Of a stretch of 64,000 nucleotides of DNA, positions 23,192 through 26,312 are shown piece by piece (positions within the stretch are counted from its first letter, which is position 1; every line of letters starts with the position of its first letter). The DNA is from Eubacterium minutum ATCC 700079 (GTDB lineage: Bacteria; Bacillota; Clostridia; Peptostreptococcales; Anaerovoracaceae), in NCBI GenBank assembly GCA_003433295.1, contig CP016202.1, positions 1,275,067 to 1,339,066 on the forward strand, written 5' to 3'. The notes beneath the pieces were generated by a model. That model saw nothing but the letters and a program-made list of their open reading frames with translations. It did not search any database and was not told the origin of the DNA. A program made the translations under genes and the position numbers.

Positions 23192-24511
23192 ATGATAGAA
23201 AAAATTCCTCCACACAATTTGGAAGCGGAACGTTCGGTCATAGGCTCGGGGCTGCTCAGCAAGGAAGCTCTTGCCGATGTGATTGAATTTATATCACCAA
23301 TTGATTTCTATGACGGCGCGAACAAGGAAATCTTTGCCGTAATGCTGGACATGTTCAGAGAGAACAAGGCGGTTGACATAGTTACGGTTTGCGATGAACT
23401 GAAGAGAAAAAAACTGCTTGAGGCGGTCGGCGGCAGAAGCTACGTGGCAACCCTTTCCGGGGAAGTTCCCGTTACCACCAACGCAGTGGAATATGCAAAA
23501 ATCGTGGCGGAAAAAGCTTCGATCAGAAAATTGATACATACGTCCGAAATCATACGGGAAAATAGTTTTGACCAGAATCAGGATGCGGAAGAGATAATAA
23601 ATTTTGCGGAAAAAGAGATATTGGGGATTGCGCAGGAACGTCAGAAAGGCGACTATGCCGAACTTAAAGATGTGCTTATGGCGGATCTGGATTTGCTCGA
23701 TGCGGCGGTAAAAAACCAAGGCAGGATCACCGGAGTTCCCACAGGCTTTAAACAGTTGGACAATATGACTTACGGTCTTCAGAAGTCGGATCTCATAATC
23801 GTGGCGGCAAGGCCCGCAATGGGGAAAACGGCGTTTGCACTGAACATAGCCTTAAACGGTGCGGTCAAAGGAGATGCGTCCGTTTTGATTTTCAGTTTGG
23901 AAATGTCGAAAGAGCAGTTGGGGCAGAGGCTGCTTTCCATGGATGCAAGGGTTGAGATGCAGAGCATCAAGAAAGGGACGGTCAATAACAGCGACTGGGA
24001 CAGGATACTGGTTACGGTAGATAAACTTTCCAAGGCGAATATCCATATAGACGATACGGCGGATCTCAGTGTATTTGAGATTAAAAACAAGTGCAGGCGT
24101 CTGAAAGCGGAGAAAGGGCTTGACCTGATAGTGATAGACTATCTTCAGTTGATGAAGTTCGAAGGTAAGGCGGAAAGCAGGCAGCAGGAGATAAGTAACA
24201 TGTCCCGCTACCTGAAACTGCTTGCAAGAGAAATGGACTGTCCCGTTATAGTTTTGTCACAGCTTTCACGTGCTCCGGATCAGAGACCGAACCACATGCC
24301 GGTGCTGTCCGATCTCAGGGAGTCGGGGGCGATAGAACAGGACGCCGACATCGTAATGTTCCTTTACAGAGATGACTATTACGAGAAAGAGAATTCGGAA
24401 AAACCGGGAGTTTGCGATGTCATAATCGCAAAGCACCGTAGTGGCCCCACAGGCGATATAGAACTTACGTGGGTGGATCGTTACACAAGATTCAGCGATA
24501 TGGCAAATTGA
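23192..24511 (+). CDS. dnaB: Replicative DNA helicase DnaB
   Basis: The 439-residue protein has the DnaB N-domain (I-P-P-H-N-L-E-A-E-R-S-V-I-G), linker and RecA-like ATPase domain with A-R-P-A-M-G-K-T-A-F-A-L-N near residue 210, Walker B V-I-D-Y-L-Q-L, and G-A-I-E-Q-D-A-D-I-V. It is the 5'-3' hexameric fork helicase (named DnaC in Bacillus). It follows rplI as in Bacillus, but purA, next in Bacillus, lies 29 kb away here. Confidence 0.97.
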   Translation: MIEKIPPHNLEAERSVIGSGLLSKEALADVIEFISPIDFYDGANKEIFAVMLDMFRENKAVDIVTVCDELKRKKLLEAVGGRSYVATLSGEVPVTTNAVEYAKIVAEKASIRKLIHTSEIIRENSFDQNQDAEEIINFAEKEILGIAQERQKGDYAELKDVLMADLDLLDAAVKNQGRITGVPTGFKQLDNMTYGLQKSDLIIVAARPAMGKTAFALNIALNGAVKGDASVLIFSLEMSKEQLGQRLLSMDARVEMQSIKKGTVNNSDWDRILVTVDKLSKANIHIDDTADLSVFEIKNKCRRLKAEKGLDLIVIDYLQLMKFEGKAESRQQEISNMSRYLKLLAREMDCPVIVLSQLSRAPDQRPNHMPVLSDLRESGAIEQDADIVMFLYRDDYYEKENSEKPGVCDVIIAKHRSGPTGDIELTWVDRYTRFSDMAN

Positions 24512-24706
24512 CACGGAGAGTAATTTTTCCCTGCAACGATCGGAAACGGCCGCGGTATTCACCGCCTATCCGACTCGCACAAGTATTTTTCCCGCAACGG
24601 CCGGAAGCGGTCGGAAACAGGGCGGTCGGAAACAGACTCGGTGATTTTAACAAGACCTGCAAGTCCATGTGCATCCTACGCAAGAATCGGAGATAAATAT
24701 TAAAAG

Positions 24707-25984
24707 ATGAGTTTGAAGAAGAGAAAAGTTAAGGATCTGTATCTGTACGATACGCAGATAGAAAATATCTTCATAAATGAATACCTGCCGCAGGCAAAAG
24801 GCGACTATGTGCGAGTGTATATATATGCAAGCATGTATGCCGGGTTCGGCATGGAAACAGACAGCAAAACCATTGCCGAACAGCTTGGAATCACAAGGGA
24901 AAAGGTTAAGGAAGCATGGGATTACTGGGAGAAGTTGGAGCTTATAAAAAGAACGTTTTCCGGCGACGATACGGCAGAAGAAAGAATAGAATTTCTTAAT
25001 ATCAAGGATATGATGTACAGCACCGTCGGCAATGAAGGCGCAAAGGCGGCAAATAACGATAAGACGGTTTTCGACGACGAGAACTTCAGAATCATGTTTG
25101 ACAGGATTGAAAAGATGATGGGAAGACAGCTCAGCAGTACGGAAATTTTGAAGATAAACGAGTTTGTCATAGACGGCGGGATTCCGCCGGAAACGGTTTT
25201 CTTTACGATAGAATATTGTAAACAGAAAGGGAAGGACAGTTTTCCGTATATCGGGAGTGTCCTCAAGAGTTGGTCGGACAGAGGCCTTGTTACCGTTGAC
25301 CATATCAGGGAGTATCTTGAGGAAAATGACAGAAGGCACGTGCAGTACCGCAGAGTCCTGAAAGCGTTGGGGTTCAACAGGAACGCAACCGAAAAAGAGC
25401 AGGAACTCATGGACCGGTGGTTTGACGATTACGGATATGGAATGGATAAAGTTCTGGATGCGGTCGCCAAGACTTCGGGAATCGCAAGTCCCAACTTCAA
25501 CTACGTGAACAAGGTTCTGGAAAACTGGAAAAAGGAGTCCGAGAAACGGGGAATAGACGATGTAAACAGGCAGGTAAATGTTTCCGAGGGGCAGCTTCAC
25601 GAGTATTACATTTATCTACAGGAAAAAGCCAGGAAAGAGGCGGCGGAGAGGACAGAACATATTTACAGGGTCATTCCGCAGATCAGGGAAATAGATGACA
25701 GACTGACAGAAGTAAGGAAGAAACTCGTGCATAATATGCTCAACGGGAAAGACGGCGGTTCCAACAAGATAAACGAAGAAAAGGAACGGCTGGAACTGGA
25801 AAGAGCCGGTGTCCTTACAGACGGGAATTTTGACAGCGATTATACGGAAGTGAAATATCTTTGCGATAAATGCAGGGATACGGGAATCACCGACATGAAC
25901 GAGGTCTGCACGTGCAGGCTCGAGAGGCTGCGGGAAGCGGAACTCTGGTTGAAGCAGAGAGCAAACGAAGAAAGTACACTTTAA
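24707..25984 (+). CDS. DnaD-domain primosome protein fused to a DnaI N-terminal-like domain
   Basis: The 425-residue protein has a DnaD-type winged-helix N-terminus (residues ~1-100), then two DnaD-like helical domains (about 125-190 and 215-275, the second ending F-N-Y-V-N-K-V-L-E-N-W). Residues ~290-420 instead resemble the N-terminal helicase-binding domain of DnaI/DnaC loaders: a long charged helix, then C-D-K-C-R-D-T-G-I-T-D-x-x-x-x-C-x-C, a zinc-binding pattern. The stop comes just where the AAA+ domain would begin, and no AAA+ gene follows. In relatives dnaD and dnaI are usually separate adjacent genes. Function is probably helicase loading with DnaA and DnaB. Confidence 0.8.
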   Translation: MSLKKRKVKDLYLYDTQIENIFINEYLPQAKGDYVRVYIYASMYAGFGMETDSKTIAEQLGITREKVKEAWDYWEKLELIKRTFSGDDTAEERIEFLNIKDMMYSTVGNEGAKAANNDKTVFDDENFRIMFDRIEKMMGRQLSSTEILKINEFVIDGGIPPETVFFTIEYCKQKGKDSFPYIGSVLKSWSDRGLVTVDHIREYLEENDRRHVQYRRVLKALGFNRNATEKEQELMDRWFDDYGYGMDKVLDAVAKTSGIASPNFNYVNKVLENWKKESEKRGIDDVNRQVNVSEGQLHEYYIYLQEKARKEAAERTEHIYRVIPQIREIDDRLTEVRKKLVHNMLNGKDGGSNKINEEKERLELERAGVLTDGNFDSDYTEVKYLCDKCRDTGITDMNEVCTCRLERLREAELWLKQRANEESTL

Positions 25985-25991
25985 AGGTCAT

Positions 25992-26312
25992 ATGAAAAGC
26001 AGGGAACAACGCAGAAAGAAAAAGAAGATGCATCTTAACATGAGCCGGCTGCTGTTCAGAGTGGTGATAGTGGTTCTTGTTTGCGTGACCGCGCTGTCGA
26101 TCAGGAAGATAGTACTTTTGAAAATAGAGCAGAGTGAGTTGAAAGAACAGCAGAAGGCATTGAAAGAGAAACGCACGAAGCTTAAAAATGAACTTAAAAA
26201 CATTGACGATAAAAACTACATAGAAGAGCAGGCGAGAAAGCAGCTCAACATGGTAAAGCCCGGCGAGATTTTATACATGATAGAAAAGGACAGAAGCAAG
26301 GGAAAAAACTGA
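25992..26312 (+). CDS. Septum formation initiator family protein (FtsB/DivIC-like)
   Basis: The 106-residue protein has a basic cytoplasmic start, one transmembrane segment (about residues 19-35), a coiled coil rich in E/K/Q/L, and a terminal E-E-Q-A-R-K-Q-L-N-M-V-K-P-G-E motif typical of DivIC/FtsB. Such proteins join FtsL and FtsQ/DivIB at the division septum. It begins 7 bases after the DnaD-like gene. rnmV follows. Confidence 0.88.
   Translation: MKSREQRRKKKKMHLNMSRLLFRVVIVVLVCVTALSIRKIVLLKIEQSELKEQQKALKEKRTKLKNELKNIDDKNYIEEQARKQLNMVKPGEILYMIEKDRSKGKN

Follow-up and report, generated by a model that had tools for sequence, protein, structure and literature searches.

The described systems closest to the locus analysed here are the DnaD, DnaB and DnaI proteins of Bacillus subtilis, the clostridial pair of dnaD and dnaC genes, and the helicase loaders DnaC and DciA. 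A 2012 review names simply DnaI for the firmicutes (PMC3290774). B. subtilis DnaD forms tetramers and binds both DnaA and single-stranded DNA, and the C-terminal tail of DnaB, a paralogue of DnaD, docks on the AAA+ domain of DnaI (PMC13326638). The N-terminal domain of DnaI has been described as not homologous to that of DnaC (PMC3791466). The helicase-binding domain of Escherichia coli DnaC, deprived of its ATPase, still loads the helicase DnaB onto single-stranded DNA with roughly half the wild-type efficiency and comes close to full-length DnaC in stimulating unwinding; as a counterpoint, several AAA+ motifs of DnaC are reported to be critical for function, and ATP turnover raises the efficiency of loading (PMC8213410). 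Helicase loading is stimulated by Walker A mutants of the Clostridioides difficile loader CD3654, and the helicase that they release is active (PMC5204125). On the helicase side, the LH-DH module of DnaB is bound by DnaC and DciA, while for DnaI such contact is a prediction only (PMC9912922). The purpose of the DnaC/DnaI ATPase has thus far been probed with mutants and truncations of partial activity. The fusions described below constitute natural test proteins for the same question.

The window, a stretch of 64,000 nucleotides from Eubacterium minutum ATCC 700079, contains a gene of 425 codons (24707..25984; this gene, its domains and the two neighbouring genes given below lie on the + strand) in which a DnaD protein is continuous with the N-terminal domain of a AAA+ helicase loader, an architecture that is shared by relatives. 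The initial annotation had proposed such a junction, without any AAA+ domain, from the sequence alone, and profile searches bear it out directly. Approximately 280 N-terminal residues are of DnaD type, with a winged-helix-like start in the AlphaFold model followed by two DnaB_2 domains. Both DDBH1 and DDBH2 are present, the former (approximately aa 20-104; 24764..25018) resting only on the helices and strands of the model and on a weak Foldseek match to the DnaD N-terminal structure 2v79 (E 0.38). Pfam DnaB_2 (PF07261) is found twice in the ORF, with an E-value of 1.4e-27 over two stretches: the first DDBH2 domain (aa 131-203; 25097..25315) carries a YxxxVxxxW motif at aa 181 and the second (25373..25537) another at aa 266. 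These are the only two DnaB_2 copies in the window's genome, making the fusion its sole DnaB_2 gene. Motifs of the YxxxIxxxW type occur twice in 27 of 30 fusions and at least once in all 30. A Foldseek search with the fusion model also retrieved the DnaD entries 9a5c_B (E 1.6e-5), which is itself an integrative model, and 2zc2_A (E 0.064, TM 0.83 on the target). The model of the whole protein has a pLDDT of 81.5 and a pTM of only 0.39, and the arrangement of the domains is therefore not known.

The remainder of the protein belongs to the loader. Residues 296-406 (25592..25924) match positions 8-120 of the 330-position NCBIfam profile NF005304/PRK06835 at an E-value of 1e-17. The score of 64 bits lies far under the whole-protein cut-off of 215 because only the part that precedes the AAA+ domain is present. 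The protein terminates 19 residues past this match, at the point where the ATPase would begin, and a profile search of the ORF returned no AAA+ family at E <= 1, with neither Walker A nor Walker B. A DivIC-like gene (25992..26312; Pfam DivIC, E 1.2e-16) occupies the place where the loader ATPase would have continued; it starts 7 bases beyond the fusion ORF, as had been noted at the outset. By its sequence, the C-terminal segment is a homologue of the N-terminal part of PRK06835, the clostridial AAA+ loader. Modelled alone, it gives a mean pLDDT of 95.9, with three helices leading to a segment of four cysteines and one final helix. The four cysteines (C386, C389, C401 and C403; 25862..25915) form a knuckle that is presumed to be a zinc site, although no metal data exist, and the pattern recurs in all 30 fusions read and in all 23 separate loaders. 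This domain is under purifying selection: pN/pS across five pairs was 0.02-0.25 for the loader domain and 0.06-0.20 for the DnaD part, and the loader domain had the smaller value in two pairs and the larger in the other three. These ratios are inflated, since most of the pairs were saturated at synonymous sites.

The likeness to the N-terminus of DnaI/DnaC that the initial annotation had recognised thus holds for the clostridial family PRK06835, while neither sequence nor structure searches demonstrated kinship with the zinc domain of B. subtilis DnaI. This solved domain was absent among the matches listed when the C-terminal domain or its model was searched by hmmsearch of the PDB, Foldseek and VIA-align, and the entries that were listed are unrelated, mostly helical look-alikes. 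Pfam holds a family for the DnaI N-terminus, which was likewise absent among the matches listed (25 of 96 families). Kinship is not excluded by these missing matches. Contact of the domain with the helicase is, in the clostridial family, assumed from its position.

The presumed client, the replicative helicase DnaB, is encoded upstream (23192..24511; identified by profile matches). It is separated from the fusion gene by 195 bases, and this gap holds two perfect copies of a 14-base unit, GCGGTCGGAAACAG, at 24607-24635, with starts 15 bases apart, and a 79% copy at 24536. The core of this unit is mildly enriched in the window (8 matches against 3.96 expected).

Taken together, the fusion protein is probably the replicative-helicase loader of the cell, working without a loader ATPase; its helicase binding and loading activity are inferred solely from homology and from the neighbouring genes, and metal binding and the division of labour are likewise inferences. 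At the opened origin the DnaD part would oligomerise and bind single-stranded DNA and DnaA, partners also of B. subtilis DnaD, and the tethered loader domain would grip the helicase DnaB and keep it loadable. The positioning role of the AAA+ ring would pass to the DnaD part, and release would rely on the helicase's own ATPase and on primase.

The absence of a loader ATPase is observed directly, first of all in the window's genome (1.9 Mb, 2 contigs, 96% complete). Here the DnaC/IstB ATPase profile PF01695 gave 16 matches at E <= 1, all candidates being scored, and the only two proteins to pass its cut-off were DnaA and PhoH. NF005304 at E <= 1e-14 gave two matches, DnaA and the fusion ORF. A complete dnaI elsewhere in the genome, combined with no match of the C-terminal segment to the loader, would have overturned the initial annotation, and this combination did not materialise. 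DciA (PF05258) was not found in any of 61 genomes of relatives including the window's, with matches in 7 of 14 controls, and a lambda-P-type loader (PF06992) in none of 41 genomes including the window's, with a match in 1 of 14 controls (E. coli). A survey of the window's family (f1; 165 genomes of at least 90% completeness) found no full-length loader over the NF005304 cut-off among the best 12 candidates per genome. Elsewhere in the order, with f1 and a second fusion-bearing family, f9, set apart, 149 of 153 genomes have such a loader among their best 6 candidates; the exceptions in other families are G204, G212, G304 and G333.

These surveys bear on the possibility that an unrecognised AAA+ protein or another loader acts in trans and that the fusion merely recruits the helicase. 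Bacterial loader genes have been replaced several times (PMC5109545), and DnaC-like ATPases of 280-315 aa do exist in some f1 genomes. Since the wide surveys scored only the best candidates (12, 6 or 15 per genome), a divergent ATPase partner cannot be excluded. The known candidates are patchy, however: 97 of the 165 genomes lack any PF01695 match at E <= 1e-12 among their best 15 candidates, and ATPases of the DnaC/IstB type therefore cannot supply the essential loader. In the other 68, the ATPases, sorted by length and matched part, include IS21 IstB and DnaA besides the DnaC-like proteins. Of three DnaC-like loci read closely, two (L032 and L034, at about 590-2220) carry a 283-aa ATPase immediately after a RepA_N initiator, with MobA close by in L034, and the third (L035) lies beside a DUF6291 gene. 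The first two are likely replication pairs of mobile elements in genomes without a chromosomal ATPase loader. In C. difficile, a second DnaI homologue is located on a conjugative transposon (PMC5204125). With DciA and lambda-P not found, and with DnaA and PhoH alone passing PF01695 in the window's genome, a loader in trans is considered unlikely. The fusion explains why counting AAA+ and DciA genes would turn up no loader here. Brezellec et al. reported a few species with neither dna[CI] nor dciA (PMC5109545), and that set may include f1 members.

A different role for the fused domain has also been considered, namely that the helicase loads itself, or does so with primase, and that the domain is a regulator which locks or unlocks it. 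In C. difficile the helicase is slowed by the wild-type loader, and primase activates it whether the loader is present or not (PMC5204125). A presumed helicase grip joined to an origin-binding protein nevertheless fits delivery better than regulation, and the loader domain was kept in two separate lineages; a purely regulatory role is accordingly held to be improbable. A comparison of 36 DnaB helicases for compensating changes, with only 9 of the sequences from non-fusion genomes, revealed 11 positions that separate the two groups, four of which (147, 155, 170 and 268) lie in or near stretches taken as the linker and docking helices. The stretches 161-180 and 261-280 have the fewest majority residues common to both groups (5 and 7 of 20) and are also among the most variable inside each group. 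The helicases of fusion genomes keep a conserved tryptophan, which is here placed in the LH-DH module.

Loading by the fusion is also consistent in outline with what has been lost from its DnaD part. A tail of the form KFHNF/L..S/QR...YS.EELE.LL, a candidate docking site for the loader ATPase, closes 15 separate DnaDs that were selected by eye from a set of 23 (loci L060-L070, L085, L087, L088 and L091). A profile built from these 15 matched none of 30 fusions at E < 0.01 (best 0.04), and absence of the tail is thus a direct observation. The scores of the 15 themselves prove nothing, as they had been chosen for a visible tail. Among the remaining 8 separate DnaDs, two (L089 and L090) matched at E < 0.01 and six did not, so that the tail is common but not universal; by eye, a variant tail is seen in L092, L093, L099 and L100. 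In the fusions, a linker of 24-42 residues joins the two parts. If the clostridial tail acts like that of B. subtilis DnaB, then by this analogy the fusions may be inferred to have lost both partners of one contact and to have a covalent linker instead. That the tail and the AAA+ domain are missing together also leads to a prediction of the surfaces that touch in ordinary clostridial loaders.

The origin of the fusion can be traced in the gene order of its relatives. In non-fusion genomes of the order, dnaD and dnaC were adjacent genes in 14 of 14 loci read. The separate pair lies on the strand opposite to dnaB in 9 of 9 loci in which dnaB was fetched, and is convergent with purA in 7 of 7 in which purA was fetched. 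Separate pairs and fusions share a gdpP-rplI-dnaB-purA neighbourhood. Both f9 loci and one f1 locus (L046) show the fusion in the arrangement of the separate pair, opposite in strand to dnaB, whereas the window and the other 23 f1 loci, counting L080 (which has no stated family) and the split copy L059, have it on the same strand as dnaB. These arrangements fit a single event in which dnaD lost its end and dnaC its start, together with loss of the AAA+ part and a later inversion. The ancestor would have had a dnaD gene adjoining a dnaC gene for a AAA+ loader. An in-frame event is proposed to have taken out the C-terminal tail of DnaD together with a few codons at the start of dnaC. With the AAA+ part lost as well, the outcome would be a loader N-terminal domain covalently attached to DnaD. 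An in-frame deletion and a lineage that uses an ATPase-free helicase chaperone had at first been offered as alternatives for this gene. The two prove compatible, as an old in-frame fusion in a lineage without the ATPase, with the chaperone function itself being inferred.

The fusions of f1 and f9 fall into one group (support 100/99) in a 51-row tree of DnaD and the loader N-terminus, and a tree of the DnaB helicase likewise separates f1 and f9 from 9 others. On this phylogenetic evidence, the fusion of the two families is common by descent. All three f9 genomes lack a full-length loader, and the fusion is present in the two that were read. The same architecture is found in family f44, which belongs to another order: none of its 11 genomes has a full loader, and 8 show the N-terminal match within ORFs of 405-458 aa, the remaining three being 69-89% complete. 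Four f44 loci were read. The split copy L059 was left out of the trees, and the long branches L073 and L074 were left out of the careful tree. Conceivably, a single fusion event served all of these lineages and f44 acquired its gene by transfer, given that the join is similar and the end point identical in both groups. Yet f44 groups elsewhere in the tree, beside an unfused pair of family f16, and a single clade of fusions is rejected (AU p 0.000235), which makes one event very hard to sustain. With f44 placed apart and the single clade rejected, the same product was probably reached at least twice. The evidence leans, without great firmness, towards an ATPase-free class of loader that arose at least two times in the class, by cutting off the AAA+ motor and welding the helicase-binding domain to DnaD.

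Two further ideas about the history of the fusion were followed and set aside. No full-length DnaD-DnaC fusion that could represent an intermediate was encountered among the nine loci outside f44 from a search of the class (L085-L093), all of which carry separate dnaD and dnaC genes, even though several had been chosen because long open frames were reported. Regarding a phage origin, nine records labelled as phage were matched, and in the two best of these, H1 and H2, dnaD and dnaC are separate genes rather than fused. The records L099 (MT837496.1) and L100 (MT838492.1), filed as phage, carry separate dnaD and dnaC genes, with the dnaC of L100 cut by the end of the record; the latter looks bacterial, as it also carries SSB, ribosomal protein S6 and a Mur ligase.

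Conservation across the window's family is observed directly. A profile made from 26 fusions matches 163 of the 165 f1 genomes and all 55 genera, missing G087 and G145. This profile also matches separate DnaDs, and a match alone is therefore no proof of fusion. Intact fusions were established in 151 of the 165 genomes: among the 150 with listed profile matches, 149 have a single open frame running into the loader domain and one (G067) is split, and among the 13 whose matches were too weak for listing, G029 and G035 were found to be fused by means of NF005304. Eleven genomes were matched without the fusion being established (G062, G088, G096, G110, G118, G121, G147, G148, G149, G171 and G180). 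In G067 (L059, 5146-6296) the gene is divided into overlapping DnaD and loader-domain frames, probably by a sequencing frameshift, as L052 and L053 from the same genus are intact. Chance and assembly error are ruled out by the recurrence of this architecture throughout the family, and a degenerate or mis-assembled locus, in which a recent deletion or sequencing error removed the ATPase, is counted as refuted by this spread and by purifying selection despite that one copy in two frames.

One family and an independent lineage thus appear to replicate their chromosomes without a loader ATPase. If this is true, nature can dispense with the loader ATPase in chromosome replication, and in DnaD-containing bacteria one main role of the AAA+ domain is that of an adaptor between the tail of DnaD and the grip on the helicase. 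No DnaD-loader fusion and no natural ATPase-free derivative of DnaC/I is reported in the titles and abstract openings that searches of an open-access library listed.

Among known systems, DciA resembles the fusion in being an ATP-independent helicase loader (PMC8213410); it differs in having a KH-type fold unrelated to DnaC/I (PMC9912922) and in finding no match in the 61 relatives. The B. subtilis system likewise combines a scaffold of the DnaD family with a zinc-bearing, helicase-interacting N-terminal loader domain (PMC13326638; PMC3791466). However, DnaI retains its AAA+ domain, bound by the C-terminal tail of DnaB, and homology of the N-terminal domains is undemonstrated. The clostridial pair (C. 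difficile CD3653-CD3654; PRK06835) has the same two parts in a similar neighbourhood, with a three-domain DnaD-like protein and a loader N-terminal domain bearing the same four cysteines in the 14 separate pairs read. In the pair, the parts are encoded by two genes, the AAA+ ATPase is complete and a conserved DnaD tail is usually present, whereas the fusion is one gene without ATPase or tail. The isolated domain of E. coli DnaC is similar in that a loader cut down to its helicase-binding domain still loads DnaB (PMC8213410), but it is an artificial truncation with no tether to an origin protein. With its function inferred and not shown, the ATPase-free loader would, on the best reading, be the natural counterpart of that isolated DnaC domain.
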